This document shows, piece after piece, positions 23,701-38,487 of a DNA stretch of 64,000 nt. The number at the start of each line of letters is the position of its first letter. The stretch's first letter is position 1. Where the stretch lies: contig NZ_CP098401.1 of assembly GCF_023674425.1 (NCBI RefSeq), forward strand, positions 248,001 to 312,000, written 5' to 3'. The DNA is from Sphingomonas donggukensis (lineage in GTDB: Bacteria > Pseudomonadota > Alphaproteobacteria > Sphingomonadales > Sphingomonadaceae). A model generated the notes under the pieces. The model ran no database searches. It was not told where the DNA came from and saw nothing but the letters and a program-made list of their open reading frames with translations. A program made the translations under genes and the position numbers.

Positions 23701-25020
23701 GAGCCCGGCGACGACGAGACCGGCGGGGAGGTGAGGACGGTAGGACGGCCTGGGCGCGCGCACGCTGGCCATCGCCGCCGATTGTACGAGCGGGGTCGGG
23801 TGTGGCGCGGCACCTGACAGACGCACGGTCTGGAGCGTGAACGGTTCGTAGAGCGCGTCGCTGATCCTGGTTGCAGCGTCGGGCTCGGCTTCGATGATCT
23901 CGTACTCGAGCTCAATCGCGTCCGCTGCGACCGGCGCGAGTGCGAACGGCCTGATCGGCGCGCTGCCACTTCGCGCGGTCGATCGGACCACTGCCCGCGA
24001 TGAGCCGGACCGCCGGGGAATGCATGCCGCGCGGGGCGGGACATGCGCCTCGACGAGCGCCAGCAGGGCGGCAGCATCGGCGGCCATCGTCAGATGAGCC
24101 GCCGGCGAGATGTCCGCGCCGGGGGTTGCGCGATCGATGACGGTGAGGCGCGTCGCCACCGTCGTTCCGTGGCGCGCATAGGCTGACCCATGGAGCGCAG
24201 CCGAGAAGACGACGCGCCCGCGTTCGGCCAGTTGCGCGAAGGCGTTGGCCCAGGCCGGGTCGTCGGCCGCAAACCCGGCGCCGGTGATCGCGACGAGGCG
24301 CCCGCCCTCGGCGAGCCGCGCCAGCGCCGAGGCGATATGCCGATTGGCCGCGTCGCGCATCGTGCCATCGACGTGCGCCGCCACCGAAAAGGGTGGGTTC
24401 ATCAGGACGACACTCGGGCGCAGCTGTTCGTCGAGACGGTCGTGGATGTGTGCTGCGTCGAGTTGCGTGACGCAGGTGTCGTCGAACAGAAGGCCGAGCA
24501 GGTCGGCGCGACCGTCAGCGAGCTCGTTCAGCGCGAGCGCCGCCCCGGCGGTCTCGGCGAAGATCGCCAGCAGACCGGTGCCGGCGGACGGCTCGAGCAC
24601 GACGTCGCTCGAGCCCAGGCTCGCCGCGCGCGCGGCGACGAAGGCGAGCGGCAGAGGGGTCGAGAATTGCTGGAACGCCTGGCTCTCCTCGGAGCGCCGC
24701 GTGTGGGTGGGAATCAGACTGGCGACCTTGCTCAGCATCGCAAGCTGCATGGCGGGTGCGCGCCTGGCGATCGCCGCGCCATGCCGGCGCAGAAACAGCA
24801 CCTGCGCGACTTCGCAGGCATCATAGGCCAGTTTCCAGTCCCACGCCCCTTCGGCATCGGAGGCGCCGAACGCTTCAGTCATCGCGTCGCGCAAGACGGC
24901 GCGCTCGATCGCGACGCCCTGGGCGAGCGGCACGAGCAGGCGTTCGGCCGCTGCGACAACGGCGGCGGCGCGCGCGCTCGTGGTGGCGGCGGTTGGGCAC
25001 GCCGAGTGGTTCGATGACAT
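20692..25020 (-). CDS. strawberry-notch family helicase with N-terminal methyltransferase
   Basis: A 1442-residue protein. The N-terminal ~300 residues look like a SAM-dependent N6-adenine methyltransferase: VVLEPSAGTGLLAIFAE supplies motif I and SVVLMNPPFSVAAH the NPPF catalytic motif (near 205). A superfamily-2 helicase follows: Walker A in MLGDGTGAGKGRQ (near 500), DExH box VIVFDESHAMQN (near 600), and the strawberry-notch C-terminal domain with FSEAGGTGRSYHADLS and IQGLGRTNRTHQAQ (near 990). Homologues are common on sphingomonad plasmids and ICEs and are suspected anti-restriction or DNA-processing factors; activity is inferred. A hairpin (GCGGGTCG/CGACCCGC) lies in its 5' leader. Toprim and DUF2493 genes follow. 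Confidence 0.92.
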   Translation of the reverse strand: MSSNHSACPTAATTSARAAAVVAAAERLLVPLAQGVAIERAVLRDAMTEAFGASDAEGAWDWKLAYDACEVAQVLFLRRHGAAIARRAPAMQLAMLSKVASLIPTHTRRSEESQAFQQFSTPLPLAFVAARAASLGSSDVVLEPSAGTGLLAIFAETAGAALALNELADGRADLLGLLFDDTCVTQLDAAHIHDRLDEQLRPSVVLMNPPFSVAAHVDGTMRDAANRHIASALARLAEGGRLVAITGAGFAADDPAWANAFAQLAERGRVVFSAALHGSAYARHGTTVATRLTVIDRATPGADISPAAHLTMAADAAALLALVEAHVPPRAACIPRRSGSSRAVVRSTARSGSAPIRPFALAPVAADAIELEYEIIEAEPDAATRISDALYEPFTLQTVRLSGAAPHPTPLVQSAAMASVRAPRPSYRPHLPAGLVVAGLLSDAQLETLVLAGEAHSAELAGAWQVDETFATIAAAAEDADGAVRFRRGFMLGDGTGAGKGRQVAAVILDNWLKGRRRALWISKSDTLIEDAQRDWAALGQERLLIQPLSRFRQGKPITLPEGILFATYATLRSDARDEKVSRVTQIVDWLGSGFDGVIVFDESHAMQNAAGVRSERGDTKPSQQGRAGLSLQHALPQARVLYVSATGATTVHNLAYAQRLGLWGGEDFPFVTRAEFVAAIETGGVAAMEVLARDLRALGLYTARSLSYDGIEYEIVEHALTPEQTRIYDAYAGAFQIIHHNLDAALEAAGVTSASAEGSATLNAQAKSAARSAFESSKQRFFGHLLTSMKTPTLIARIDEDLAAGHACVVQIVSTGEALMTRRIAAIPAEDWCDVQIDITPREYVLDYLAHAFPVQLYEPFTDGDGNLASRPVYQDGHPLLCRDAVDRRDRLIERLAALPPVAGALDQIVQRFGTDEVAEVTGRTRRIVRRRGSTDIDRLAVETRPAGSNLAETAAFQDDAKRILIFSEAGGTGRSYHADLSARNTRLRVHYLLEAGWKADAAIQGLGRTNRTHQAQPPVFRPIATNVRGEKRFLSTIARRLDTLGAITRGQRQTGGQGLFRASDNLESDYARAALRQLYMLLIAGKVESCSLGRFEDATGLALLTRDGAVKEDLPPITQFLNRVLALPIALQNLLFDVFDGLLNARVENAVAAGTYDIGLETLRAESMTIIDRRAVYTHPGTGAETFALEINRLDRIEPYPLDDALDLAGAKNGRLLVNAQSGHAAVQVGAASVTLDDGTVEKRVRLVRPTDRRNMAASALDGSLWQDVDGAAFAAAWTTEVAALPPFVESRFWIVTGLLLPIWRRLPQDGCRVYRLQTDDGARIIGRRVSADWVAQALGEPAPAIATADAWETVFDRNGVLQLEQGMTIRRSLVMGSQRVELTGFGDAMVERLKADGLITEIIAWKLRAFVPVGADGPATLARVLAHYPIVRVVDRVAA

Positions 25021-25109
25021 GGGACGACCTTTCGAACGAGAGCAGAGCGGGTCGGCCGCCGGGGCGCTCTCTCTCGACCCGCCGCGGCCGACTCCTCACG
25101 GCCTCCCCC

Positions 25110-25352
25110 TCACTCTGGTTCGACGAAGCCGCCGTCGGGCGCCGGCGGGAGATAGGTCCCGAACGGGTTGGCCGGGGCGAGATGACCGAACGGGGTCATC
25201 ACAAAGTCCTCGTCGTCGCGCCCGATCGCCGCGATCACATACCGCAGTTCGCGCGTGCCGGCGTCGAGGCACTCAACGAGTGCGAGATCGCCGGCCGCGG
25301 CGGCGCGCAGCAGGGTAGCGAAATTGGTGCGAGCGTGGTCCGGGATCGCCAT
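25110..25352 (-). CDS. DUF6117 family small protein
   Basis: An 80-residue protein, MAIPDHARTNFATLLRAA at the start and LAPANPFGTYLPP near the end, matching DUF6117. The start ATG 25352 has AAAGGAG ten nt upstream. Function is unknown; the family travels with ParB, ArdC and strawberry-notch genes on mobile elements. The longer frame to 26120 is antisense/out-of-frame noise over parB. It lies between parB, from which it is separated by a hairpin (25386-25409), and the strawberry-notch gene, all on the minus strand. Confidence 0.85.
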   Translation of the reverse strand: MAIPDHARTNFATLLRAAAAGDLALVECLDAGTRELRYVIAAIGRDDEDFVMTPFGHLAPANPFGTYLPPAPDGGFVEPE

Positions 25353-25385
25353 GATCCGGCTCCTTTCGACAGTTTCGAGGAGGAT

Positions 25386-25409
25386 GCGGCGCCCGACCAC
25401 GGGCGCCGC
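25386..25409. terminator. 10-bp GC hairpin after parB
   Basis: GCGGCGCCCG and CGGGCGCCGC pair around ACCA. It sits 8 nt past the parB stop and before the DUF6117 gene on the same strand. No U-run is present, so it may be a weak terminator or an mRNA stabiliser. Confidence 0.5.
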
Positions 25410-25416
25410 CCCCCAT

Positions 25417-27495
25417 TTACTCGGCGGCGATCGCAAGCGGCGCGGAGCCATCCTCGTCGGCATCGACGAGGAAGTCTGGCAGTGGCGGTTCGGCGGGTGA
25501 TGCGTCGGGCGTCCGGAGCGGTCCGGGCACCCAGTTGCTCTCGGCCAGCAGCCGTTCGGCCTCGCGGGCCATATCGGGCTTCTTAAGGTGGTCGATGAGC
25601 TGAGCCGCCATCTCGCCGACGCCCTCGCGCACCGCGGCGATGATCTGCGGCTTGGTGACTTGCGAAAGGTAGTTTGCGACCGTGGGACGCCATCCAGTTT
25701 CGGCCAAGTCGAGCGCCACCGCCTGCGCCAGGCGATCAGCTTGTGCGATCCGGTTGGCCAGTCCCAGCGACGACAGGCTGCCGCCGCCATAGCGGTCGAC
25801 CTTCTCCCACCGCGCATTGACCGCACTGCCGACGCAATGCGCGAGCAGCGCCGCGCGCTCCTCGTCGGCCATCGTCGCGAGCAGTGTCCAAAGCGCATCG
25901 TCGTCATCGACCGGAAGCCGATCGCCCCAATGCGCGTGCCGCGCCGCGATCGCCTGCGCCGACGCGCTGTCATTGAGGTCGGCTGCCTGGACCGGCAAGT
26001 AAGTGGGCCGCGCCGCAACGTCGAGGCAGCCGCCGACACCGACGCCCGATCCGAACAGGTCGCGGACGAGTTTGTGCAGGAGCAGGGTGAGCGCGACCTC
26101 GGGGACCTGCGCGACGGCATCGCGGAGCGCCAGGGTCCGGTGCGCGGTCAGCTCGGCGACCAGTCGTTCGGGAAGCGGCTTGGGCGCATCATCCTCGGAA
26201 CTGTCGTCTTCTCCCGGATCGCCGCGCGACTCCTGGCCTTCGCTGCGGCCCGCGCCGTCGCCGCCACCGTCACCGGCTTCCAAGGGCGGGCCTGCTGCCT
26301 CCTCGTCCTCGGGTCGGACGAAGCCGCGCTCCACGCGCATCCGTCCGTCGCCGCCGAGACTGACGAAGACACCGGCGCGCGCGCGATCGTCGTCGTCGAA
26401 GCGGGCGGGGATGGAATCGAGCCGGTCGAGCGCGGCTTCGATTTCGCTCAGCCGCCGATCGACCGCCTCGGGCAGGTCGTCGGGATCGTCGGCATAGTCC
26501 GCTTCGAGCTGCTCGAGTTCGGCCTGCAACGCTTCGCGCTGCGCTTCCTCGTCGGTGGCGAGGCCTGAGCCAAGCGCAATCAGCCGCCGCAGTCCGGTCT
26601 GGTGGCCGTAAGGGAAGTCGAGCGCGATCTCGACCCAGCGCCATCCCTCGGCAGCGACCGGCGCTGCCTCGCCCTGCAGTTTTTCGAGCGCGAGCCGGTC
26701 GAGCAGCAGCGCGTCGTCGAGCCAGCCGTCACCGTCTTCGGTGAAGAGGTCGCGCAGGACGGTTCCGCCGGCGGCCTCATAGGCGGCGATGCCGAGATAG
26801 CGAACGCGCCGGTCGCGCGCGTCGATCGCGCCCTGGGTCAGCAGGCTGCGGATGTAATAGGGCTCCTTGTTCCAGCCCGACTGGATCCGCTCGAACACCT
26901 GCAGTTGGCGATCGTGATCGGTCGTCACGGTGAACGCCATCAGCTGGTCGAGGGTAAGCATATCCTCGGCATAACCGTCGAGCAGCGTCGGACTGACGGC
27001 GGCGAGGCGCAGCCGCTGGCGGACCACCGCCGGGGTCACGAACCAATTGGCGGCGATCTCCTCGTCGCCCTGGCCCTGGTCGGCCAGCACTTTGAACGCG
27101 CGGAACTGGTCGAGCGGGTGGAGCGCGACGCGGTGGACGTTCTCGGCAAGGCTGTCATCTTCGGCCGAGATGCCGCTATCCCCGTCCTTGACGATGCACG
27201 GCACCGGCGCGGTCCTGGCCAAGCGCTTCGCTTTGACCAGCCGCTGCAGTGCCTGGAAGCGGCGCCCGCCGGCCGGAACCTCGAAACTGCCGGTGTCGAC
27301 GCCGGCGTCGTCGCGCAGCGCACGAACCGCGAGCGCCGACACGAGGCCGCGGCGGGCGATGTCCTCGGCAAGGTCCTCGATCGAGACGCCTGGCTTGACG
27401 CGCCGGACGTTCGATTTGGAGGGAACCAGTTTGTCGAACGGGATGTCCCGAACGCTTCCGAGGACAACCTTCATTTGAGTCTTGGTCACGAGCAT
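25417..27495 (-). CDS. ParB/RepB/Spo0J-family partition-like protein
   Basis: This 692-residue protein has the ParB N-terminal domain: DIPFDKLVPSKSNVRRVKP (near 20), SFEVPAGGRRFQALQRLVKA (near 75) and ENVHRVALHPLDQFRAFKVL (near 125). A KorB-like HTH follows: DEEIAANWFVTPAVVRQRLR (near 150). The C-terminal 350 residues are a large acidic region typical of the mobile-element ParB family, with no ParA nearby. The likely role is DNA binding for maintenance or regulation of the element. The ATG at 27495 has a GAAAGG ribosome binding site whose bases lie in the 3' arm of a 12-bp leader hairpin (27500-27551). Confidence 0.92.
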   Translation of the reverse strand: MLVTKTQMKVVLGSVRDIPFDKLVPSKSNVRRVKPGVSIEDLAEDIARRGLVSALAVRALRDDAGVDTGSFEVPAGGRRFQALQRLVKAKRLARTAPVPCIVKDGDSGISAEDDSLAENVHRVALHPLDQFRAFKVLADQGQGDEEIAANWFVTPAVVRQRLRLAAVSPTLLDGYAEDMLTLDQLMAFTVTTDHDRQLQVFERIQSGWNKEPYYIRSLLTQGAIDARDRRVRYLGIAAYEAAGGTVLRDLFTEDGDGWLDDALLLDRLALEKLQGEAAPVAAEGWRWVEIALDFPYGHQTGLRRLIALGSGLATDEEAQREALQAELEQLEADYADDPDDLPEAVDRRLSEIEAALDRLDSIPARFDDDDRARAGVFVSLGGDGRMRVERGFVRPEDEEAAGPPLEAGDGGGDGAGRSEGQESRGDPGEDDSSEDDAPKPLPERLVAELTAHRTLALRDAVAQVPEVALTLLLHKLVRDLFGSGVGVGGCLDVAARPTYLPVQAADLNDSASAQAIAARHAHWGDRLPVDDDDALWTLLATMADEERAALLAHCVGSAVNARWEKVDRYGGGSLSSLGLANRIAQADRLAQAVALDLAETGWRPTVANYLSQVTKPQIIAAVREGVGEMAAQLIDHLKKPDMAREAERLLAESNWVPGPLRTPDASPAEPPLPDFLVDADEDGSAPLAIAAE

Positions 27496-27499
27496 TGCC

Positions 27500-27551
27500 T
27501 TTCGTGACGGGTGCCGGGAGCCACTCTCCCGACCCTCAACCCGTCACGAAA
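27500..27551 (-). promoter_or_regulatory. double-stem leader hairpin of parB
   Basis: The outer stem TTTCGTGACGGG (27500-27511) pairs with CCCGTCACGAAA (27540-27551), a perfect 12 bp. The inner stem CGGGAG (27515-27520) pairs with CTCCCG (27526-27531) around CCACT. On the minus strand the 3' arm contains the GAAAGG used to start parB, so it could gate translation. The ardC stop codon lies inside it. The ardC leader at 28549-28595 has the same two-stem layout with the same CGGGAG-N5-CTCCCG core. Confidence 0.6.
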
Positions 27552-28537
27552 ATCTCGCCTTCCTCTTCCTCTCCAAGCGCCGACGCATATCGCGCTCTCG
27601 CCGGGAGTCCCGCCGGTGCCACGAACGCCATCGCGTCGGGGACGAAGCCGAGGAGGATATCGGCTGCCTTCGAGGCCGCCGACGCCGCACGGACGATGGC
27701 GCGCGAGTCTTCGCGCAACACGTCGAGCCATCCGCCGAGATAATCAGCGTGACGGACGGTCGGTCGGATGCCGAGCGTCGCGCAGCAGAAGGCCGCGCAG
27801 AGTTCGGCGACGAGTTCCTCGCGCGCGTAGCCGGATGTGCCGAACCGGCCTTGCTGATCCCGATTGAGGCGCGATCTATGGCCGGTCCAGTGCCCGAGCT
27901 CGTGGAGCGCGGTTCGGTGCCAGTCGATCGGATGGAAGAAGGCCTCGGGCCGCGGCACCTGCACAAAATCGATGGTGGGGGAGTAAAAGGCCTGGTCGCC
28001 CCCCATCCGGAGGTCGGCGCCGCTGGCTGAGATCAGCGCCTGCACCGTCGGCGCGATCAATCCTTCGGGCAGCGGCGAAGGCACGGTCGCCGGGCGCTCG
28101 GGCAGGCCCTCGCACTGATCGGTCGAGAAGACGGTGAAGCGCTTGAGGAAATGGATTGTCTGGGGCTCGCCGTTGGGCGTCGACACTGCGTCATGCTTCG
28201 GCTCGAAGCGATCTGCATAGACCACCGTCGTGCCGCGCTCGCCCTTGCGGACGTTACCGCCAAGGGCGAGCGCCTGGCGGAAGGTGAGCCAGCTCTGGCA
28301 CGAGAAGCCGCGGGCGACCGCCGCGCCCCAGAGGATGAGGATGTTGATCCCGGAATAGGCGCGCGCGCTCGCGGCGTTGCGCGGCAGCCCGAGTCGCGCT
28401 GCGACGCCCGAGGATCCCCAGGGCTGCGCCCATGGGAAACGGCCGGCCTCGAGGTCGGCGATAATCGCTTGGGTGATTTCATCGTAGATGCACGGGCGCT
28501 CGGGTTTCGGACGGCGCGTCTTGGAGGTGATGGGCAT
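27536..28537 (-). CDS. ArdC-like antirestriction protein (ssDNA-binding + zincin)
   Basis: This 333-residue protein starts MPITSKTRRPKPERPCIYDE. An N-terminal ArdC/DUF1738 domain follows: ITQAIIADLEAGRFPWAQPW, GLPRNAASARAYSGINILIL and SCQSWLTFRQALALGGNVRK plus GERGTTVVYAD. A C-terminal zinc metallopeptidase carries HELGHWTGH (near 215). Residues such as ARSGYAREELVAELCAA complete the motif set. ArdC proteins are reported to protect incoming DNA from restriction; that role here is inferred from family. The chosen ATG (28537) is preceded by GGAG just after a two-stem leader hairpin (28549-28595); a longer frame to 28660 reads through the leader. It is upstream of parB on the same strand. Confidence 0.9.
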   Translation of the reverse strand: MPITSKTRRPKPERPCIYDEITQAIIADLEAGRFPWAQPWGSSGVAARLGLPRNAASARAYSGINILILWGAAVARGFSCQSWLTFRQALALGGNVRKGERGTTVVYADRFEPKHDAVSTPNGEPQTIHFLKRFTVFSTDQCEGLPERPATVPSPLPEGLIAPTVQALISASGADLRMGGDQAFYSPTIDFVQVPRPEAFFHPIDWHRTALHELGHWTGHRSRLNRDQQGRFGTSGYAREELVAELCAAFCCATLGIRPTVRHADYLGGWLDVLREDSRAIVRAASAASKAADILLGFVPDAMAFVAPAGLPARARYASALGEEEEGEIFVTG

Positions 28538-28548
28538 GGACCGGCTCC

Positions 28549-28595
28549 GCGGCGAAGCGCCGGGAGCTTCTCTCCCGAACTCCAACTTTCGCCGC
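28549..28595 (-). promoter_or_regulatory. double-stem leader hairpin of ardC
   Basis: GCGGCGAAG (28549-28557) pairs with CTTTCGCCGC (28586-28595, one bulged T). The inner stem CGGGAG (28561-28566) pairs with CTCCCG (28572-28577). The architecture and inner core match the parB leader, while outer stem bases differ. The ardC ribosome binding site follows immediately on the minus strand. Confidence 0.6.
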
Positions 28596-28695
28596 GCCAG
28601 GGCGCGCCACCCTCTCACTTTTTCGCCGGCGACGGCCGGGATACCGCGGAATTGCCACAAATGTACGGCGTATGGGGCGAGAAAACCGGATCGGT

Positions 28696-28754
28696 GTTCA
28701 ATGTTGCTTTAACAAAAGGGCGATACTATCTTCAGGTTGACGATTATATTGAAC
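28696..28754 (+). promoter_or_regulatory. promoter with flanking inverted repeats upstream of hipA
   Basis: A sigma-70-like pair, TTGCTT (28704-28709) and TATCTT (28727-28732), is spaced by 17 nt. It is flanked by GTTCAAT (28696-28702) and ATTGAAC (28748-28754), exact inverted repeats. The stretch is AT-rich compared with its surroundings. It is a plausible autoregulated toxin-antitoxin promoter, bound by the HTH of the giant protein; that binding is inference. Confidence 0.5.
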
Positions 28755-28785
28755 GAGGTGTGAGATCGCCGAGCGCGTAGCCCAT

Positions 28786-29934
28786 GTGACCTACAAGCGC
28801 CAGTTCGCGGGGACGCTCCGCGAAGTGGGGGCTGGCACGCGCTTTGAATATCATGACGGCTGGAACGAGACCATCGCGTGCAGTCTGCCTGTCAGCAAAC
28901 GTGATCACTACTGGCCAACCGGGCTATTCCCATTTTTTGAGCATCTGGCTCCCGAGGGCTGGCTACGTGCGCGTCAGGCACGCGCCGCGCGCGCGTCCGA
29001 CCAGGATGACTTGGGTCTGCTGCTACGCTTCGGCGCCGACTGCATCGGTGCGGTTGGGGTCCGACCGCCAGGCGGATTGCCCGAGCCTGGCACCGATGGA
29101 GATGCCCTCGAGGCGGCAGTTACCACTCCCGGCCGCACACTGTCTGGCGTACAGAGAAAGCTGCTCGCGCATCGCGCTGATAGCGGCGGTTTCGTGCCGT
29201 CGCATCAATTGGCTGACCCTGCGACGCACATCGCCAAACTCAACGCGATCGACCGGCCGACTCTCGTTCAGAACGAGGCCCTATCGCTCGGCCTCGCGCG
29301 GGAGGTGCTCGGGTCAGCAGAAATCACGGAAGCGTCGATCGGGGCTGTCGCCGGCATCGATGGCATCGCGTTGCTCGTCGAGCGTTTCGACCGCGTCGGC
29401 GAAAACCAGCTCAGGCTCGAGGATTTTGCGCAAATCCTCGGCCGACCGCACGGCCGCGATTTCAATGGCAAGTACAATGGCAGCTACGAAGAGGCTGCCG
29501 GCGTCGTGGCTGCGCATTCGGCGCGCGCCCGAATTGACCTCGATCGCTTCTTTCGTCTCGTCGTGTTCAATTTTGTGATTGGCAATGCCGACGCGCATCT
29601 GAAGAATTTCTCTTTGCTCGAGCGGCCTGAAGGGCTGCGGCTAAGCCCGGCCTACGACTTGGTCAGCACGTTGCTTTACGATTTTGATCCCGAAACCGGT
29701 CTTGAAATCGGCGGGCGAAAGCGGCCGATCGACACGCTTGATCGCGGCATCGTGGAGGCCTTCGGCGCTGAAATCGGCCTGCCGCCAGCAGCTGTGCGGC
29801 GCGCACTCGATCAGTTGGGCCAGCGCTTCGCCAAAGCGAAGACGCCGGCGCTTCCCGAGCGGATCGAGCCCACTGACTTCCGCTTGCGCTATCGCGATCT
29901 TGTGACGCGGCTGGCGACGAAAATCCTCGCATGA
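28786..29934 (+). CDS. HipA-family serine/threonine kinase (toxin-like)
   Basis: This 382-residue HipA-like kinase opens with YKRQFAGTLREVGAGTRFEY, then WPTGLFPFFEHLAPEGWLRA, the HipA N-terminal subdomain. LSGVQRKLLAHR (near 120) replaces the HipA phosphate-binding region. Catalytic IGNADAHLKNFSLL (near 265) and metal-binding LSPAYDLVST (near 285) are intact, so kinase activity is likely. Classical HipA phosphorylates GltX and is neutralised by the HTH protein HipB encoded upstream. No separate hipB is found; instead, the next gene, overlapping by ATGA, starts with a HipB-like HTH fused to a very large protein. GTG 28786 is the only usual start; the frame stays open for 11 more codons upstream without ATG/GTG/TTG. 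Confidence 0.88.
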   Translation: MTYKRQFAGTLREVGAGTRFEYHDGWNETIACSLPVSKRDHYWPTGLFPFFEHLAPEGWLRARQARAARASDQDDLGLLLRFGADCIGAVGVRPPGGLPEPGTDGDALEAAVTTPGRTLSGVQRKLLAHRADSGGFVPSHQLADPATHIAKLNAIDRPTLVQNEALSLGLAREVLGSAEITEASIGAVAGIDGIALLVERFDRVGENQLRLEDFAQILGRPHGRDFNGKYNGSYEEAAGVVAAHSARARIDLDRFFRLVVFNFVIGNADAHLKNFSLLERPEGLRLSPAYDLVSTLLYDFDPETGLEIGGRKRPIDTLDRGIVEAFGAEIGLPPAAVRRALDQLGQRFAKAKTPALPERIEPTDFRLRYRDLVTRLATKILA

Positions 29935-32900
29935 CCGGGCTGAGCATCGATTGGCGCGCGACCGTGGACGAGGCGATCCGACGGCGCAAAGCGGAGGGCC
30001 TTTCACAGCGCGCGCTCGCGTCGCTCGCGGGGGTCAGCGTACCTACTGTCAATGCCTTCGAGCAGGGCGACATCCGCCTGCGCTTCGAGCGTATCGTTGC
30101 GATTCTCGGGGCATTGGGCCTGTTCGCGCAGGCCGATGCGAGCGACGCTCTGTCAGGTTTCATCCGCGTATCGCGGGGCCGCTGGGACTCGCTGGTTGCC
30201 GGTCTGCCGCCCGAGCACCCCGCCCGGGCGCTGCGCGGAAGTTTCGAGTTCGTCTTCGAGCTGCCCGGTATCACACCAAGTCCCGCCAAGGCGCTGCGCG
30301 ACTGGTTGGAAGCCGAGCCCCGTCATACGGTTTGGCAACCGTTCGCGGCCGGCGGTGGCAAGCTGCGCGTCGTCGAGGGCGCACTCGAATATTGGGCCGG
30401 TGACGCAAGCGATGTCACTATCGGCGACTTTTGGCGGCTCGACCCCGCTGGGCGCGGCTTTGTCCGCCAGGGCTATCGCGAGGATGCTCCCGGCTCGCTT
30501 AGCCCCGGACTGGTCTTCGATCTAAGTCTGCCGATCCACCAGCTCACAAGCCTGCTGCGCCAGGCCGCCTCGCTGGCGCGCTTCGCCGGTGCCGACCGGG
30601 ACGCCGTGGTCCGTCTGCGCGGTGCTTGGCGCGGGCTTGCCGGCCGGACGCTTCACGCGTGGGCAGACCCGCGCTTGCGCGGCGCAGTCCCCGCCGACGC
30701 GCTGGCGTTAAGCGACAGCGCCGAGATCGACGTCGAGCTTACGTTGGGGGCGCTCGAAGGCGATCTGCCCTCGGCGGTAGCGACGGCACTCGCGCCATTA
30801 TTCGAGCGGTTCCAAGGCTTTGCACTACCGCGCGAATTGGTCGCTGGACAGATCGGGGAAACCGCTCGTCGTGAAGGCGTTAGTATTGGCCCGTTCGAAG
30901 TTCCCAAAGCGCTCGTCGCTGGCCTTGGCGACGAACAGCTGCGCACGTTGCTCGGCAAGCTGCTCGAGGCCGAGGCTTCGGCACGTGGCATTGCGCTGTC
31001 GGGCATCGATCTGGGCGGTAACCAGACCGCAGCCGATGGCGGCGTCGATGCGCTGCTGCGCTGGCGGGACGGACCCGAGCCTGGCGGCTGGTTGCCGGCG
31101 CGCGACATTGTCTTTCAGTGCAAGGCGCAGGTGTTGCGCCCCGCCCAGGTGGCCGACGAAATGCGGCCCAAAGGCGTGCTGCGACCGATCTTCACCGAAC
31201 TCGCGAACGATCGCGGTGCCTATGTGCTTTTCACCACCGACGATGTCGGCACCAAAGGCCAGACTGAGCGCCTTGCACGTATGAAGGATGCCCTCGCCGA
31301 TCTGCCTGGCGGTGAGCGCGTGACGCTCGATTTCATCGGTCCCGATCGAATCGCTCGCTGGGTCAACCAACATCCTGGCGTGGCCTTGTGGCTGCTCCAA
31401 TCGGCAGGCCGTCCTTTGCGCGGCTGGCGCCCGTATGGCGCTTGGTCGGCCGAGGCCAGCGCCGGTGCGCCTTACCTGCTTGACGAGAGCGTGCGTGCGA
31501 CCGTTGCCGGAGATGAAGGCGATATCCGTAGCGCGATTGGTGCGATCCGCGGCGCGTTGGCGACCGGCGGAAGCTGCGTGCGCCTTGTCGGTATCTCGGG
31601 GATGGGAAAGACCAGGCTCGCCGAGGCCTTGTTCGACCCGCGTGTGCCAGGCGGGCCCGCGCTATCGCCATCGCTCGCGGTGTATGCTGATGCCGGCCTT
31701 GAACTTGCCACCGGCGCGCCGCTTGTCGCTGAGCAATTGGTGCTGGCGGCCACGCAGGCGGTGCTCATCGTCGATAATTGCACTGCGCGTGCGCACGCCC
31801 AGCTGTCCGAGATCGTCCGGCGTGGCGAGAGTCGGGTCAGCCTGCTTACCATCGATTATGACGTGGGCGAGGAAGAACCGAGCGACAGCCTGGTCGTGCG
31901 GCTCGGCGCCAACAGTGAAGATCTTCTGCGAGCCTTGCTGAAGCAGCGCGTACCCTCGTTGCGCGAGGCCGAGATCGAGCACCTTGCGCGCTTCTCCGAA
32001 GGCAATGCCCGCGTTGCGCTCGCGATCGCGCGTGGCGCGGACAAGGGTATCGACTTGTCGAAGATCAGCGACACGGAGCTGCTCGACAGGTTGTTCCAGG
32101 CCGAGCGCGGCGGCGACCCCGAAGCGCGCCGGGCGGCCGATGCCGCGGCTTTGGTCTACGCCTTTCATGCCGATCCCTCCGACGTGCCCGTCGAGCATCC
32201 GGTGCTCGCCGCGGTCGCAGGCATGCCGCCGCAGACCTTTTATCGCCATGTCGAGACAATGCTTAGCTGGGGCATTGCCCAACAGCGCGGTGTCCAGCGA
32301 GCGGTGAAGCCGGATCTGATCGCCGACCAGCTAGCCGCTGCGACCTTGGCCGTGAGTGACGCCGATCATCTGCTTGTTACGTTCGCGTCCGGTCCTGAAC
32401 GGCTGTTCGCGTCGTTCGCGCGCAGGCTGGGGCGGCTGGATCGTGTTCCGCGCGCGCAAGCGATCGCCGCCCGGCTGCTCGCGCCGGGCCAATGGCTCGA
32501 CGATCCGCGTACATGGCGCGACGAACAGCGGCGCGCTTTCTTCGGCCTGGCACCCGCAGCACCCCTGGCGGCGCTCGAACTCATCGAGCGAACCCTTGCC
32601 GGCGACGACAGGTCGGCTCTTACGGCTTCTCACCGCGACCGAGACGATTTTGCCGAGCTGCTGGTGCATCTCGCCTACGACGAAACACTATTCCCCCGCG
32701 CGATGCGTAGCCTCGTACCGCTGGTGCTCGGCGAGACCAACGGAGCTGAGCAACGCAACCTGCGCGACTATTTTCTTCAGCGCTTCTGGCCAGCGTTGTC
32801 CTGGACGCATGCTCGCACGCGCGCACGATTGGATGTCGTCGATCAATTGCTCGATGAGGGCGATTCCGAGCAGCGCTCCCTCGCGCTCGAAGCGCTCGAT

Positions 32901-34652
32901 CACATGCTCGATGCCTGGCACATCACCTCGTCGTTCGATCCGTCATTCGGCTCGCAGCCTCGCCAGGACGAATGGCGACCGCGTGGTGAAGACTATCGCC
33001 ATTGGTACGAGGAAGCCTCGGCGAGGATCGAGCGCATCGCTAGTTCGGACGATCCCCTCGCGGAGCGCGCGCGCCAGATCGTCGCTGAACAGCTTCGTGC
33101 GCATGTCTCGGCCGGCATGGGAGATCTCGCCGTCGCTTCGATGCGGCGTGTGCGCCCGACCGGTTATTGGGATGCGGGCTGGCGTCAGGTCAGCGAAACC
33201 CTCCACTTTGGCGAAGGCGTGAACGACGAGGGATTGCGCTCGCTCGAGCGCGAGCTCCGCCCACATGGAATCAATGAACTCTTCGACGCCTTCGTGCTCG
33301 GCGAACCGTGGCGGCATTGGCATCCGCGCGCGCGCGAAAATCATTATACGCGCAACGTCCAGCGACTGGCACGCCGGGTCGGCGTGTCGCTGGTGCGCAG
33401 CGGCGTCCCTCTCGACGACTATCTGGCGCGCGCTCTTTCAATCACCAGCGAGAGCAGCGTGATGGCGTTCGGCGAGGGGCTTGCGCACGCGGTACCCGAT
33501 CTGCGCGCGCTGTGGGACCGGGCCTATCGTCTCTATGTGGAGCTGCCGGCCAAAACCCGAGATCCCGGTTTGCTGATCGGCATCGTGCGCGCCGGCGGCA
33601 AGCGCGATCGTCCCTGGAGCGATGGCGTACTCGACGCCGCCGCCATCGACCCCGAGCTGCGCCCACAGATCGTCTATTTCCACTCGGCGCGGCCACTGGA
33701 TGCACGCGACGTCGAACGCTTCATCGGCGCGCTCGACGGTGGCGCTAGTCCCGAACACTTGGGAGCACTCATGTTCGGGGGCGCCACCGATACGATCTCG
33801 GGGGAGGATCTGGCGCGGCTCCTGCGCAGGTTAATGGCGCATCCCGAAGGGGCACTGCCCGCGCTCCAGATCCTTCACATGCGCATCTATGGCGACAAGC
33901 AGAAAAAGCGCGAACTCGCACCCGAGCTAACTGAGGTCGCGCGTCTGCTGCTCCACGACAAGCGCGTCTACCGCCAGTCCCGCCGGCGCGGGGACCGCGA
34001 GCTGGCCGTGCTCGCAAAACTCGTTTTCAAGACCGAGCAGGGTGCCGCGACCGCGGTTGCAATCGCACGGGCATTGCGCGAGCTGCGCGGTTCCGACTGG
34101 ATGGACGAGGATTTCACCGAACTCGGCCGCACCTTGCTCGCTGAGCATCCGCGCGTCGTTCTAGACGAAATCCTCGCCGACATCGACAAACGCCGTGGTC
34201 GGCGCGGTCTGGTTGATGCGCTGTTCGGGGGAATTCTCGGCGATCGCGACAATCAGCCCGAGCAGGGCCGCCCGGTGCTCGACGCCGAGGTCGTGCGAAA
34301 CTGGGTCGCCGAGGAGCCCCAGCCGCGCAGCGTTCAGCTCGCTAGCCTGATTCCCTACACCAGTCAGGCCGCGGACGGCATACTCGGCTGGTCTGACCTT
34401 GCGCGCCTGCTGATCGATCTCGCGCCCGATCCGGTGCCGGTCCTGCGAACTTTCGAGGACCGTTTCTTCAACGGCGTGAGTACAGGGTCCTTCTCGTCAC
34501 GCTTCGTCCGTCGCCTGCCGATGGTGGGAGCGTTGAAGACCCATTTCGACCGACGCGTTCGCAGCTGGGCGCGGGAAGCCGAGGAGCGACTTCAGCAGAG
34601 CATCATCTATTGGGACGAACGCGACCGCGAGGGCGACAGCCGCTTCGAATGA
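29931..34652 (+). CDS. HTH–Mrr-like nuclease–STAND NTPase fusion, partner of HipA
   Basis: A 1573-residue protein. Residues 10-65 are an XRE helix-turn-helix (GLSQRALASLAGVSVPTVNA, FEQGDIRLRFERIVAILGAL), the position and style of HipB. Residues 70-330 are an unrecognised middle region. Residues 335-460 look like an Mrr-type PD-(D/E)xK nuclease: QTAADGGVDALLRW (near 370) and DIVFQCKAQ (QxK near 393). A P-loop follows, VGISGMGKTRLAEALF (near 553), with a Walker-B-like VLIVDNC (near 615), as in STAND NTPases. The C-terminal 800 residues are helical and repeat-like. The start overlaps the hipA stop (ATGA). The inferred role is a combined antitoxin/regulator and phage-sensing nuclease; no such fusion is known to me. 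Confidence 0.75.
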   Translation: MTGLSIDWRATVDEAIRRRKAEGLSQRALASLAGVSVPTVNAFEQGDIRLRFERIVAILGALGLFAQADASDALSGFIRVSRGRWDSLVAGLPPEHPARALRGSFEFVFELPGITPSPAKALRDWLEAEPRHTVWQPFAAGGGKLRVVEGALEYWAGDASDVTIGDFWRLDPAGRGFVRQGYREDAPGSLSPGLVFDLSLPIHQLTSLLRQAASLARFAGADRDAVVRLRGAWRGLAGRTLHAWADPRLRGAVPADALALSDSAEIDVELTLGALEGDLPSAVATALAPLFERFQGFALPRELVAGQIGETARREGVSIGPFEVPKALVAGLGDEQLRTLLGKLLEAEASARGIALSGIDLGGNQTAADGGVDALLRWRDGPEPGGWLPARDIVFQCKAQVLRPAQVADEMRPKGVLRPIFTELANDRGAYVLFTTDDVGTKGQTERLARMKDALADLPGGERVTLDFIGPDRIARWVNQHPGVALWLLQSAGRPLRGWRPYGAWSAEASAGAPYLLDESVRATVAGDEGDIRSAIGAIRGALATGGSCVRLVGISGMGKTRLAEALFDPRVPGGPALSPSLAVYADAGLELATGAPLVAEQLVLAATQAVLIVDNCTARAHAQLSEIVRRGESRVSLLTIDYDVGEEEPSDSLVVRLGANSEDLLRALLKQRVPSLREAEIEHLARFSEGNARVALAIARGADKGIDLSKISDTELLDRLFQAERGGDPEARRAADAAALVYAFHADPSDVPVEHPVLAAVAGMPPQTFYRHVETMLSWGIAQQRGVQRAVKPDLIADQLAAATLAVSDADHLLVTFASGPERLFASFARRLGRLDRVPRAQAIAARLLAPGQWLDDPRTWRDEQRRAFFGLAPAAPLAALELIERTLAGDDRSALTASHRDRDDFAELLVHLAYDETLFPRAMRSLVPLVLGETNGAEQRNLRDYFLQRFWPALSWTHARTRARLDVVDQLLDEGDSEQRSLALEALDHMLDAWHITSSFDPSFGSQPRQDEWRPRGEDYRHWYEEASARIERIASSDDPLAERARQIVAEQLRAHVSAGMGDLAVASMRRVRPTGYWDAGWRQVSETLHFGEGVNDEGLRSLERELRPHGINELFDAFVLGEPWRHWHPRARENHYTRNVQRLARRVGVSLVRSGVPLDDYLARALSITSESSVMAFGEGLAHAVPDLRALWDRAYRLYVELPAKTRDPGLLIGIVRAGGKRDRPWSDGVLDAAAIDPELRPQIVYFHSARPLDARDVERFIGALDGGASPEHLGALMFGGATDTISGEDLARLLRRLMAHPEGALPALQILHMRIYGDKQKKRELAPELTEVARLLLHDKRVYRQSRRRGDRELAVLAKLVFKTEQGAATAVAIARALRELRGSDWMDEDFTELGRTLLAEHPRVVLDEILADIDKRRGRRGLVDALFGGILGDRDNQPEQGRPVLDAEVVRNWVAEEPQPRSVQLASLIPYTSQAADGILGWSDLARLLIDLAPDPVPVLRTFEDRFFNGVSTGSFSSRFVRRLPMVGALKTHFDRRVRSWAREAEERLQQSIIYWDERDREGDSRFE

Positions 34653-34777
34653 ACGCGTCCGTGCACTGGAAGTGCCCCTGGAGGCCGACCTAAGCGGCGC
34701 ACTGCGCGGCAACGCCTTTGATCAGCGGCTTACTTATTTCGATTCAAACATCGGGCCGCACAATTCGGAGCAATGAG

Positions 34778-35791
34778 ATGACGGGACCTGCCGGCCTCGA
34801 CTTCGAACCCGAGATCCAATTTCCCGAAAATGCGTTCGATGCCGCGCGCGTGTTCTTGGGCGCGATGGCCTATCCCGAGCGCGGTGCGGGGCAACTTGTC
34901 GGGCTCGGAGCGCCATTCACGGCGGCACTTTGGAACTATGTCGTCTGGAACGGGCGCCAGGCCCGCGGTCTGCGCTATGTTCGCGAGAAATTCGCCGATC
35001 CGAACTTCAAGCCGCCCGCCAAGCGCGACTTCGAAGGCACGCTCGATCGGGGGCTGCGGCGGCTGCGACGAAGGAGCACGGCGTACAGCTTGATCGGTAC
35101 GCAGATGATCAATGGCTTCTTCGCGGTGCTGGAAGACTCGGCGCGGCTAACCCGCGCAGGCCGGCGCGACGAAGCGTTTGTCATCCACCCGGGCGCGAAG
35201 TTCGAGCCTTGCCGTCCGGAATTGTGGGCACGCAACACGCGCTCGCCTCGTCAGACTATCACAAATGATGTGGATCGCTGGGCTAAGCGGTTCGGGCTGA
35301 ACTCGACCGGAAAGGCGGCCGACAGCTCGCAAAAGGTCAAGGATCTGGTCCGCCGCGCCTATCTCCAGTCGAGGCCAGTGCTGCATATGACGCACGCCTT
35401 GAATGTCGTCTGCACCGAGATCGGTCCGAAGCTCGATGGTTGGGACGATTGGGACTGGCTGCTTGTGCTCCTTTGGAATCCGGAAGCGTGGGTGTGGGAC
35501 GCGATTGGAACGGCCAGTAGCTGGCGCGAGATATCAAGGTTCCACTTCACGCCCGATCTCGAGCCGAGCCACATGATCGACCTGATCCTCCCCGAAAAGA
35601 TGCAGGATAATGCACCCTGCCACGATCCGCTCAAGCGCGCGATACCCGCGACTGAGGAAGGTGCGGTCGATGCAAATACTGAGCGAACTGACGACATTCC
35701 TGGCCGCAGTGGCGGGTCTGCTGAGCGCGGTAGCGACGGTTATCACGGTCGTGCGGCGACGCCGGGACTGACCGGCCAAGGAACGACCTAG
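34778..35791 (+). CDS. hypothetical protein, 337 aa
   Basis: ATG 34778 is preceded by CGGAG ten nt upstream; an in-frame start at 34718 adds 20 poorly supported residues. No family is recognised. Residues 1-300 look globular and helical, rich in W and R (GAPFTAALWNYVVWNGRQAR, SLIGTQMINGFFAVLEDSAR, DDWDWLLVLLWNPEAWVWDA). The last 40 residues (EEGAVDANTERTDDIPGRSG onward) are low-complexity. That tail overlaps a small membrane-peptide frame at 35670-35771, so it may be coding for the other product. It follows the HipA/STAND pair by 125 nt on the same strand and could be a third member of that system. Confidence 0.6.
   Translation: MTGPAGLDFEPEIQFPENAFDAARVFLGAMAYPERGAGQLVGLGAPFTAALWNYVVWNGRQARGLRYVREKFADPNFKPPAKRDFEGTLDRGLRRLRRRSTAYSLIGTQMINGFFAVLEDSARLTRAGRRDEAFVIHPGAKFEPCRPELWARNTRSPRQTITNDVDRWAKRFGLNSTGKAADSSQKVKDLVRRAYLQSRPVLHMTHALNVVCTEIGPKLDGWDDWDWLLVLLWNPEAWVWDAIGTASSWREISRFHFTPDLEPSHMIDLILPEKMQDNAPCHDPLKRAIPATEEGAVDANTERTDDIPGRSGGSAERGSDGYHGRAATPGLTGQGTT
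35670..35771 (+). CDS. nested 33-aa membrane peptide
   Basis: A short frame inside the 3' end of the previous gene, in a different frame. It starts MQILSELTTFLAAVAGLLSA, continues hydrophobic through VATVITVV and ends RRRRD. This gives one membrane helix with a basic C-terminal tail, the look of type I toxins or small membrane effectors. GAGGAAGG precedes the ATG at a good distance. The overlapping frame of the larger gene is low-complexity here, which supports this frame as the selected one. No homologue is recognised; it could also be a chance ORF. Confidence 0.4.
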   Translation: MQILSELTTFLAAVAGLLSAVATVITVVRRRRD

Positions 35792-35882: not shown

Positions 35883-37436
35883 TCAAGCACAGCAAACGGC
35901 AACCGTCGCCCTCGCCTCGTCTTCGGCCTTTTTCGGGAGCCCCTCCCGCAGCGCGCGGATGTGAGCGGCGTAGATGTCCCAGTCGTGCAGGACCCGATTG
36001 AACGGGTGGGCCAACACGCTCCCCCGGTTGCGCCATGCGGCGATGTCCCAATCCGCGTCGATCAGGTCGGAAGCGGCAAAGAAGAACTCGAGCGCACTGG
36101 TGAGAAACGACACGACGTCGCCGTTTTCGGCGTAGCTGAAGCTGCCCGGGCTCCCGTGCACATAATAGTTTCGACACTTGACCGCCTCGTCCGTGACAAG
36201 GTCGAGGTCCACCAGCGGCTCCCTCAGCGCTCCGGACACGAGCGCCGCGCGGTCGTGCACCTTGCTGCGGAGCGTCGGTCGGCCAAGTCGTCCAAGCGCG
36301 TTGAGGACGCTGCTCCGCTCCGGCGAGTTCGGCAACGCGCGAAACGCCCCGCGCGCCAAGGCCTTCGCCTTCAGCAGATCCGCGGCGAGCGGCGCCACCG
36401 TGGAAAACCCATCATCGGGCAGTATGTCGAACATGTTGGCCGCGCCGACGAGCCGGTCGATGGAGAAACTGCGTTGCTGCTCAAAGCCGCTCGCGAAGCG
36501 GACTCGCGCCTCGAGGCGCACAGGGTCGTTCGCTAACCAACGGCTTAGCACGGTGCCGAACTGCTCCGGCTCGTCGACGACCGGGATCAGTATCTCTGAA
36601 GGATGCGGACTGCGCTCTTCCCAAGCGACGGGGCGGCGGGGCGGATGGGTCCAGTAAAGATCGAGCGGTGGCGCGCGGTCGTCGCCGATGGTGTCGAGCC
36701 AGATGCCGTCGATGTTCTGGGGCCGCCCAGCGAGCATTCCGAGGAAGCGGAGCAGGCTCAGGACGGCGTCGAGCGTCCCGGCCAAAAGTCTGGGCTCGAC
36801 GAAGCAAATCTCGACCAGCGTTCGATTGCGCATTCCGACTTCGCGCGTCGAGAGCGGGTGGGAGGGTATGGGCCGATGGAAGACCCTGACTCGGCCTATG
36901 GCGGTCTCGACGTCGGCCAGCTCGGTCCGTCCAGCGAAGTAAGCGATGTCCGGCGACGGACCAGTGGGTATTTTCCGGTCGATGTGGCGCTCGTTGGCGG
37001 CCACCACCGCCTCGATCAGCGGTCGCGGGTCAATGACGTGGCCCATCGCGTCGAAGTCGTAGAAAACCTGCTCAGCGTCGTCGATGTGGAAGGTGACCTT
37101 CGTGATCTCCGCGACTTCTGCCGAGAGGTGGCGGTTCCCCGAAACGATGTAGGCCGGCATCAGCTCTGCGAAGCTAAAACTCTCGTCGTAGCGTGTCGCC
37201 GATCCGAGGCTCGAACGCACCGCACTCGCGAGCACCGTAACCTTGGTTCGGTCGTGAAGGGTACCTCGGATGCACTCAGCATGCTCGTCTTCGACGTGGA
37301 AAAAGTCGGCATCGTGCAGGTAGAGCATCGTTTCCGTTCCGCGGATCGACAGTTCGCCGAGAACGGACCTTGCCTCGCCGATGTCGAAGCGCCCTCCGAG
37401 CTTCGCACCCTCCACGATCTCCTCGTCTCTGGACAT
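35883..37436 (-). CDS. ApeA-like HEPN anti-phage protein
   Basis: This 517-residue protein starts MSRDEEIVEGAKLGGRFDIG. The N-terminal part (LGGRFDI, AECIRGTLHDRTKVTVLASA, SFSFAELMPAYIVSGNRH) fits the beta-rich ApeA N-terminal domain. The C-terminal third is helical with the HEPN RNase motif KCRNYYVHG (R-x4-H, near 421). ApeA-type proteins are reported abortive-infection RNases. The ATG at 37436 is chosen because the preceding 12 codons are arginine-rich and non-conserved. It converges with the gene ending 35791 and diverges from the MNT-HEPN gene starting 37564, which lies 127 nt away. Confidence 0.75.
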   Translation of the reverse strand: MSRDEEIVEGAKLGGRFDIGEARSVLGELSIRGTETMLYLHDADFFHVEDEHAECIRGTLHDRTKVTVLASAVRSSLGSATRYDESFSFAELMPAYIVSGNRHLSAEVAEITKVTFHIDDAEQVFYDFDAMGHVIDPRPLIEAVVAANERHIDRKIPTGPSPDIAYFAGRTELADVETAIGRVRVFHRPIPSHPLSTREVGMRNRTLVEICFVEPRLLAGTLDAVLSLLRFLGMLAGRPQNIDGIWLDTIGDDRAPPLDLYWTHPPRRPVAWEERSPHPSEILIPVVDEPEQFGTVLSRWLANDPVRLEARVRFASGFEQQRSFSIDRLVGAANMFDILPDDGFSTVAPLAADLLKAKALARGAFRALPNSPERSSVLNALGRLGRPTLRSKVHDRAALVSGALREPLVDLDLVTDEAVKCRNYYVHGSPGSFSYAENGDVVSFLTSALEFFFAASDLIDADWDIAAWRNRGSVLAHPFNRVLHDWDIYAAHIRALREGLPKKAEDEARATVAVCCA

Positions 37437-37563
37437 GCTCGAACCCTCTCTCCAACGACGGATACACCGCACCCTACGGAAAGCGCGCCGCCATCACGAC
37501 AGACTGCAGCAGCCACCTTCCCGGCTTGCTCCGGACGAAGCACGATGCCAGACTGCGAACACA

Positions 37564-38487
37564 ATGAGAACGGGGACCGATCACCTTCCGGCGGCGAAGC
37601 AGCGCGAACTCGAGCGCGTCGTCGCGCTGCTGTTCGCCGAATTCGCCGATGCGACTGCGATTGCGACGTCGGCCTGGAAGAAACAGGCGCGCATCCTCAA
37701 GGTCATTCTCTACGGCTCGTATGCTCGGGGCGACTGGGTCGACGAGCCGCACACAGCCAAGGGCTACCAGTCGGACTTCGACCTGCTCGTCATCGTCAAT
37801 CACGCGAAGCTCACCGACCGCGCCGGCTTCTGGTCGACCGCCGAGGACCGCTTGAACCGCGAGCTGGCGATCACGAAGACGCTCAAGACCCCGGTCAATT
37901 TCATCGTCCACACGCTGCAGGAAGTGAACGACGCGCTGATCGACGGGCGCTATTTTTTCATCGACATCGCGCGCGACGGCATCGTGCTCTACGAGTCCGA
38001 ACCAAGCGAACTCGCCGCGCCGCAGCCCAAGACGCCCGACCAGGCGCTCGCACTTGCGCAGGAGTATCTGGACGAGTGGCTACCTGCTGCACGGGGGATG
38101 TTGCGAACCGCTCAGTTCAGTTTAAGCGAAGGTCGTCTAAAAGATGCGGCCTTTTTACTGCATCAGGCAACCGAGCGCTTCTACCATTGCGCCTTACTAG
38201 TTTGCACCTTCTACACGCCTCACGTTCACAATCTCGGTTTCCTACGCACCCAAGCTGAGCGGATCGACCCGCGGCTGATCGAGGTGTGGCCTCGCGAGAC
38301 CAAAGCCGATCGCGCGCGCTTCGAGAAGCTCAAGGAAGCCTACGTCAAGGCGCGCTATTCTAAGCATTACCGGATCGATGAGAGCGAACTCGCCTGGCTC
38401 GGCGAGCGGGTGGAAGCGCTGGGCCAGGTCGTCGAAGTGGTTTGCGCCGAGCATATCGCCCAGCTGCGGCGCAGTGGCGCCGCGTGA
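37564..38487 (+). CDS. MNT–HEPN fusion (nucleotidyltransferase plus HEPN domain)
   Basis: This 307-residue fusion has the minimal nucleotidyltransferase motif GSYARGDWVDE (near 50) with the SDFDLLVIVN acidic pair (near 70). A C-terminal helical HEPN domain (160-300) holds AFLLHQATERFYHCALLVCT and EAYVKARYSKHYRI. In separate MNT/HEPN toxin-antitoxin pairs the nucleotidyltransferase AMPylates and silences the HEPN RNase; here both lie in one chain. The HEPN 'R-x3-H' is not a full R-x4-6-H motif, so RNase activity is uncertain. The ATG at 37564 follows the family N-terminus; the upstream frame from 37381 is not conserved-looking. An SNase gene follows by 19 nt. Confidence 0.85.
   Translation: MRTGTDHLPAAKQRELERVVALLFAEFADATAIATSAWKKQARILKVILYGSYARGDWVDEPHTAKGYQSDFDLLVIVNHAKLTDRAGFWSTAEDRLNRELAITKTLKTPVNFIVHTLQEVNDALIDGRYFFIDIARDGIVLYESEPSELAAPQPKTPDQALALAQEYLDEWLPAARGMLRTAQFSLSEGRLKDAAFLLHQATERFYHCALLVCTFYTPHVHNLGFLRTQAERIDPRLIEVWPRETKADRARFEKLKEAYVKARYSKHYRIDESELAWLGERVEALGQVVEVVCAEHIAQLRRSGAA

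Follow-up and report, generated by a model that had tools for sequence, protein, structure and literature searches.

Why should a HipA-type kinase gene end within the start of a gene in which an antitoxin-like DNA-binding domain is continued, in one reading frame, by a nuclease-like domain and a STAND nucleoside triphosphatase (NTPase), and could the two products form one defence unit? The question is raised by a 64,000-nucleotide (nt) stretch of the Sphingomonas donggukensis genome (GCF_023674425.1, NZ_CP098401.1, positions 248,001-312,000), here called the window, to which all coordinates refer unless a compared locus is named. Within it, hipA (28786..29934, + strand; 382 amino acids (aa), first canonical start GTG at 28786), of the Ser/Thr kinase toxin family, is followed by a fusion gene (29931..34652, + strand) encoding 1573 aa. 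An earlier note, made by inspection of this DNA, had pointed to the pair; both open reading frames (ORFs) lie where it placed them and the hipA stop and the next start do share an ATGA. The chance is, in our judgement, about even that a HipBA-type toxin-antitoxin (TA) system and a PD-lambda-4-type nuclease-STAND protein have here been combined into a single defence unit. As far as the sequences compared allow a judgement, the parts are known and the coupling is new, because the STAND family is a known one that is regularly found without hipA. Below, L-numbers denote loci compared, G-numbers genomes compared and hipBL the gene for a long HipB.

The kinase is readily identified by Pfam (HipA_C, E 3.4e-42; Couple_hipA, E 3.3e-19), and alignment with HipT and E. 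coli HipA reveals that the SGVQRK, HIAK (lysine), GNADAHLKN and PAYD motifs are all kept, so that a HipA_C kinase with intact catalytic residues is present. A HipA match was found in 40 of 41 loci examined, with the catalytic aspartate kept in all 40, and damaged copies of the gene were seen in L069 and L093, where it is in pieces, and in L095, where it has one stop. PADLOC gave a short match only, to the candidate family PDC-M03A (5e-9, residues 252-303). As in HipBA systems, a HipB-type helix-turn-helix (HTH) adjoins hipA, but the small separate hipB gene expected upstream is missing, the HTH gene being downstream and fused.

That the 1573-aa protein opens with a HipB-like HTH, as the earlier note had proposed, is borne out by an HTH_3 match at residues 17-63 (E 6.5e-9), and the note's account of the domain content of this protein stands, except that it overlooked a further conserved domain at residues ~70-320. 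The XRE/HipB-type HTH occupies residues 5-66 (29943..30128, + strand) and is also matched by couple_hipB, below the NCBIfam cut-off (E 6.9e-11). In an AlphaFold2 (AF2) model built from 39 sequences (predicted local distance difference test (pLDDT) 86.5), these residues are closest to HipB antitoxins (4pu7_B, Z 10.8, root-mean-square deviation (rmsd) 1.7, 61 residues), with 9u9g, 8ezt and 2wiu as further matches; the match lists are filled by the HTH, and the C-terminal domain is barely probed by them. The latter domain (residues 70-320; 30138..30890, + strand) is defined by alignments and by an AF2 block with pLDDT 58-96. Fusion residues 1-320 match stand-alone proteins of 319-348 aa that consist of an HTH and a conserved C-terminal domain of ~250 aa. 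When one genome per species was taken, 40 long HipB loci were obtained, and hipA lies directly upstream in 37, three of which are the damaged copies in L069, L093 and L095; the exceptions are L075, at a contig end, and L103 and L104, which are short HTH-only matches. On these alignments, residues 1-320 are a long HipB, usually the product of a separate gene directly after hipA. The C-terminal domain also occurs in proteins of ~450-490 aa in which a Schlafen AlbA_2 domain precedes it (L005, L009 and L014, and by eye L006-L008 and L015); a Pfam scan of the first three of these seven matched SLFN_AlbA_2 just under the cut-off in L005 and above it in L009 and L014.

The remainder of the protein, part of what the earlier note saw as a possible new system, belongs to a known defence family. 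In PADLOC, residues 322-1571 match PD-Lambda-4_A at E 8e-193, and the alignment spans positions 4-1277 of the 1283 in the profile; this whole-profile match rules out a new STAND class. With the threshold at E 0.1, only PD-Lambda-4_A models were returned for the large protein from a library that, we take it, includes Avs models, and no other PD-Lambda-4 component was matched among the nine neighbouring ORFs scanned. Relatives from plasmids, among the records listed (30 of 71), share 24-33% identity, and a search of viral contigs with the whole fusion returned one stretch that fitted a pattern and no relative. PD-lambda-4 is one of the anti-phage systems from Vassallo et al. 2022 (PMC9519451), in the passages of which no description of its parts was found; a table of PMC10952713 lists it under P-loop NTPase.

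The DGGVD and QxK motifs reported from inspection are present as D369-G-G-V-D373 and Q396-C-K398. Residues D369, G371, D373, Q396 and K398 (D48, G50, D52, Q75 and K77 of the alignment) do not vary in any of the 16 homologues aligned over the first 179 residues, and form the D...D...QxK active-site signature of PD-(D/E)xK nucleases. An AF2 model of the nuclease-STAND part (14 sequences, mean pLDDT 80.6, predicted template-modelling (TM) score 0.50), which ends at residue 1516, begins with a helix, three strands, helices and a strand, followed by the NTPase and then by helices. The conserved motifs and the order of the predicted elements are the grounds for describing residues 322-495 (30894..31415, + strand) as a putative PD-(D/E)xK nuclease. 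Comparison of this domain with PDB profiles gave two chance-level matches only, Pfam gave six families, each matched by one of the 16 members (best RecX_HTH2, 0.0022, and DUF4365, 0.0025), and the structural search with the AF2 model, which barely probed the domain, gave no match for it. The STAND NTPase (residues about 496-723; 31416..32099, + strand) contains the GISGMGKT P-loop noted earlier, at 554-561, and a D-N pair at 615-616, both, like the nuclease residues, invariant in 8-row and 14-row alignments of homologues. Beyond it, the predicted helical stretch (residues about 724-1573; 32100..34649, + strand), a probable sensor, is almost wholly helical as far as the model extends. The top Foldseek match for the STAND part was the STAND protein 6mfv (E 5.6e-6, TM only 0.16/0.27); EfAvs5 (Z 9.4, 374 residues, rmsd 18.7) and CED-4 (Z 8.6) were also listed, although Z values of this size may reflect a common arrangement and the global scores are weak. 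Taken together, motif, element order and best match point to a STAND-type NTPase with helical repeats.

At the junction of the two halves, residue 319 is an isoleucine specified by ATT (30885..30887, + strand) where unfused STAND genes have their ATG start, and in a second genome, G355, of another genus (L048), the same position has ATC, in the same GPFEV/GPFAV context. The G355 proteins are 72% (HipA), 60% (long HipB) and 64% and 60% (STAND) identical to those of the window. As this same architecture is found at 60-72% identity, it is not a chance arrangement, and as the window genome is a single contig and G355 has the same fusion, an origin by frame or assembly artefact is ruled out. The antitoxin-type protein is thus genuinely fused to a STAND-nuclease, as the earlier note had held, and the hipA-hipB-STAND linkage recurs in sphingomonads. 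In Croceibacterium salegens (L068, the G980 locus), hipA, hipBL and the STAND gene are intact and unfused with TGAGATG at the junction, and the STAND protein (1258 aa) is 49% identical to that of the window. Upstream of hipA at this locus (L068:1877-7227) there are genes that by eye resemble RNA-repair genes, presumably Ro60, RtcB and RtcA. Fossils of a STAND gene start follow the hipBL stop directly in L066 (Altererythrobacter xiamenensis; E 7.7e-6 in one search, 3.9e-4 in another), L067 (Novosphingobium mathurense; recognised by eye) and L070 (Sphingomonas 35-24ZXX; about a dozen codons with the ATG now AGG, also recognised by eye). In Sphingomonas YR710 (L071), the same slot is occupied by a different STAND-like gene, for a 1351-aa protein with a 4-nt overlap and a NACHT match below the Pfam cut-off (3.2e-5). 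Overall, of the 11 sphingomonad loci L065-L075, PD-lambda-4 A or its remnants are present in 5 and another STAND-like gene in 1; no PD-lambda-4 A match was found within 0.7-9 kb downstream in the remaining 29 of the 40 long HipB loci. The occurrence of the partners as unfused neighbours in related bacteria suggests that they function together. Two side observations belong to these loci. At L071:487-10781, hipA, hipBL and the NACHT-like gene run on into a DUF4143 ATPase gene, whose product matches the PADLOC candidate PDC-S01 (1.5e-50), and farther on is an ORF with a weak Mrr_cat match below the cut-off (E 0.012). SIR2 and HerA PADLOC defence-model matches lie on the opposite strand beyond the hipA-hipBL pair at L065:10560-13339.

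From this organization we infer the following scheme. HipA would be a kinase toxin, bound and neutralised by the long HipB (fusion residues 1-320), which would also repress the operon from a palindrome over the promoter, so that toxin and costly nuclease-STAND are both kept low. The STAND part would sense a phage component and then assemble, upon which nucleic acid would be cut by the PD-(D/E)xK domain. With antitoxin and sensor in a single chain, HipA could be set free as a second effector, one that arrests growth, when the sensor assembles, is depleted or is lost. That STAND activation would release HipA, akin to the release by phage recognition suggested in the earlier note, is plausible and the most speculative step. 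One unit is argued for by the fusion in two genera, by the recurrence of the unfused order and of the slot with a different STAND-like gene, by the PADLOC match, by the placement of hipA directly before hipBL in 37 of 40 loci, by a LexA-PD-lambda-4 A fusion and a palindrome common to fused and unfused loci, both described below, and by neighbours of defence type according to Pfam (ApeA-like and nucleotidyltransferase-HEPN).

Several observations weigh against this reading. The fusion frame in G355 is broken near residue 1151, and the gene may be dying; in Tsuneonella (L069), hipA and the STAND gene are unfused and both broken; and in the three loci with STAND fossils, the STAND gene has decayed with hipA-hipBL still open, from which it follows that the TA pair does not need the STAND protein. 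Each half is also found alone. Homologues of the large gene regularly occur without hipA, an outcome that the earlier note had said would count against its reading: neither hipA nor long HipB was found in the flanks of any of 18 STAND loci outside the hipA-linked group (flank lengths vary, and L112 is without upstream flank), near any of 15 prophage STAND loci, or near any of four close relatives (L139-L142, in G895, G1048, G1031 and G1001; 46-48% identity; two with wider flanks), so that the STAND gene is solo in all 18, 15 and 4. Conversely, hipA-hipBL is solo in most of the 37 loci. Plasmid pairs in Sphingobium, Azospirillum, Ensifer and Sinorhizobium have no STAND gene annotated behind them in a gene table that is incomplete, and L061 had none by tblastn either. 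In the STAND tree (20 rows, midpoint root, L069 only 25% filled), the fused pair is joined at 100/100 and has as its sister group two unfused hipA-linked copies together with five solo ones, so that hipA linkage requires two changes and the linked copies are not one clade. Finally, PADLOC made no ApeA call for the ApeA-type neighbour, matching it only to PDC-S58 (E 0.0081). Given the two changes required by the STAND tree, the linkage would have arisen either by one old joining followed by a loss or by two joinings. In the tree of HipA plus long HipB (34 rows, a selection of loci), the fused pair and the unfused PD-lambda-4 group are each supported at 100/100, the latter including L153 of G1031, which is identical to L070; the branching order of the two groups is not settled, and L071 is separate.

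Some of these facts fit an account in which the TA pair merely stabilises a mobile defence gene by addiction, the fusion being incidental read-through and the halves exchanging no signal. Loss of the STAND gene with retention of the TA pair in three loci, the separate existence of each half, and the mobile-element surroundings of the window locus (ArdC, and a ParB-like protein just below the Pfam cut-off) are all consistent with hitch-hiking of this kind. We consider it improbable, however, because the adjacency recurs, the fusion has been retained across two genera at ~60% identity and a different STAND-like gene occupies the same slot. Co-occurrence argues in the same direction. The family sample comprised 397 genomes, searched at E 1e-20; as no more than two candidates were scored in any genome, the counts are lower bounds. 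At least 13 genomes have the STAND gene and at least 10 the long HipB, query included. With the query set aside, these become at least 12 and 9 of 396, and at least 3 have both, against 0.27 expected if the two were independent, an expectation that treats related genomes as independent, which they are not. In two of these three genomes the genes are adjacent or fused; in G1031, the hipA-hipBL pair is on a different contig from the STAND gene. G1064, which matches the long HipB only from residue 59 on, was left out of the count.

The region upstream of hipA bears on how the unit might be controlled. A conserved block, TCAAtaTTGcTTtA, is found upstream of hipA in 16 sphingomonad loci, fused and unfused, several with near-identical upstream regions that are hence not independent, and scored higher as a palindrome than anything else scanned (4.3 of 8 pairs, against a mean of 2.2). 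In the window, this operator-like imperfect palindrome reads GTTCAA-TGTTGC-TTTAAC (28696..28713, + strand) and by eye overlaps a -35-like TTGCTT, which with TATCTT, 17 apart, would form a -35/-10 pair; a promoter scan at hipA returned no consensus site. Operon position, HTH and this site would equally suit a system in which HipA and the long HipB chiefly control the STAND-nuclease, HipA altering its HTH partner, for example by phosphorylation, a possibility also raised in the earlier note, with derepression under stress, and the repressor here being fused to its target. A precedent is the kinase-repressor pair CapK and CapS, GHKL and STAS proteins placed upstream of diverse immune operons according to the relevant passages of PMC13373217, in which no effector fusion is described. 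A kinase and a DNA-binding partner are common to both, but HipA and the GHKL kinase CapK are not related, and Pfam gave HipA and HTH families, with no GHKL kinase or STAS-winged HTH partner, at the window locus. Most hipA-hipBL pairs, moreover, are not directly followed by a recognised immune gene, and HipB-type partners in solved HipA complexes act as antitoxins. Primarily regulatory roles are thus possible but doubtful.

A LexA DNA-binding domain (4.6e-13) precedes PD-Lambda-4_A (6e-295) in one frame on a viral contig (L135:5758-9777), with no hipA found nearby. This fusion can be counted for regulation, and it also means that two unrelated DNA-binding domains have been joined to the same nuclease-STAND family, as would be expected if the HTH were a targeting device that directs the nuclease to particular DNA, such as its own or phage operators, and not an antitoxin. 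The HTH part is, however, most like HipB antitoxins and homologous to proteins whose genes immediately follow hipA in 37 of 40 loci, which makes targeting very improbable.

An unexpected feature concerns the start codon of hipA. At codon -7 of hipA, ATG is present in 20 of 26 loci outside the sphingomonads. Within them, 13 of 17 loci have ATC and 1 of 17 has ATT (together the window, L065-L068, L070, L072-L074, L049, L053, L061, L145 and L147), the exceptions being L048, L071 and L146; the count excludes L069, L075, L093, L103, L104 and the plasmid loci L062-L064. The first ATG, GTG or TTG is at codon 9 or later in 9 of the 14 ATC/ATT loci, GTG is at codon 0 in the window and L049, and canonical codons lie upstream of the ATC/ATT in L073, L074 and L147. 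Codons -7 to 88 are under purifying selection, with ratios of non-synonymous to synonymous substitution of 0.03-0.20 (seven pairs from six loci; the window is not among them). Sphingomonad hipA is therefore probably translated from AUC/AUU, and in the window the ATC at 28765..28767 (+ strand), a likely non-canonical start codon in the place of the relatives' ATG, may be where hipA begins. Among the matches listed in a literature search for non-canonical start codons, none names an AUC or ATC start. A Sphingobium CFD-2 record places the hipA start at 8219, whereas the match begins at 7853. A toxin gene family with a start codon apparently moved from ATG to ATC/ATT would allow non-canonical initiation to be tested directly on a toxin gene. 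It also permits a more elaborate proposal, which we put forward tentatively and think rather unlikely, namely a phage-sensing STAND receptor with two effectors, the nuclease in cis and HipA in trans via the built-in antitoxin, in which HipA would be freed on assembly, on block by a phage inhibitor or on loss of the receptor, the toxin being throttled by its AUC/AUU start and possibly gated by start-codon fidelity.

Among known systems, HipBA type II TA systems (E. coli, Shewanella) and HipBST have the same HipA kinase domain and motifs, a HipB-like HTH and overlapping genes, whereas here the toxin gene comes first and HipB is long and part of a 1573-aa chain. We take the HipS-like N-terminal domain to be part of HipA in the window, unlike in HipBST. 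PD-lambda-4 A homologues have the same motifs, and the PADLOC profile lacks a preceding long HipB. Avs and other STAND nucleases have an N-terminal nuclease-like domain, a central STAND NTPase and a helical C-terminal part in common with the fusion, EfAvs5 being among the structural matches; in the fusion an antitoxin domain precedes the nuclease, and PADLOC returned PD-Lambda-4_A models. HipAD (DS-6), as presented in the relevant part of PMC13092281, is a two-gene defence locus with a HipA-family kinase and a DUF3037/DUF1829 partner; the kinase family is common to both, but the partner here is HTH-STAND, and the Pfam scan gave no match to DUF3037 or DUF1829 at E 1. No description of a hipA-hipBL-STAND coupling was found in searches of the open-licence PMC literature. 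If the one-unit reading is correct, a kinase TA system and a STAND nuclease, separately known parts of immunity, would be joined in one switch, and the natural fusion would tell which protein touches which. The locus also draws attention to a conserved long HipB domain that Schlafen-like proteins have in common with it.

Downstream, a 357-aa ORF (34718..35791, + strand) had no match in the family libraries or by tblastn near the relatives searched, and was rejected as a conserved third gene. It is followed by the ApeA-type HEPN gene (35883..37472, - strand; Pfam ApeA_NTD1 2.6e-18, HEPN_Apea 7.8e-9) and by a nucleotidyltransferase-HEPN gene (37381..38487, + strand; HEPN 1.1e-7, Polbeta 1.3e-6), which are divergent with overlapping 5′ ends (35883-38487). 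On the other side of hipA, the region 20692-28660 encodes a 1442-aa methyltransferase/helicase-like protein, so named by eye and with a weak mad2 match, and contains the genes for the ParB-like protein and ArdC that give the locus its mobile-element surroundings.

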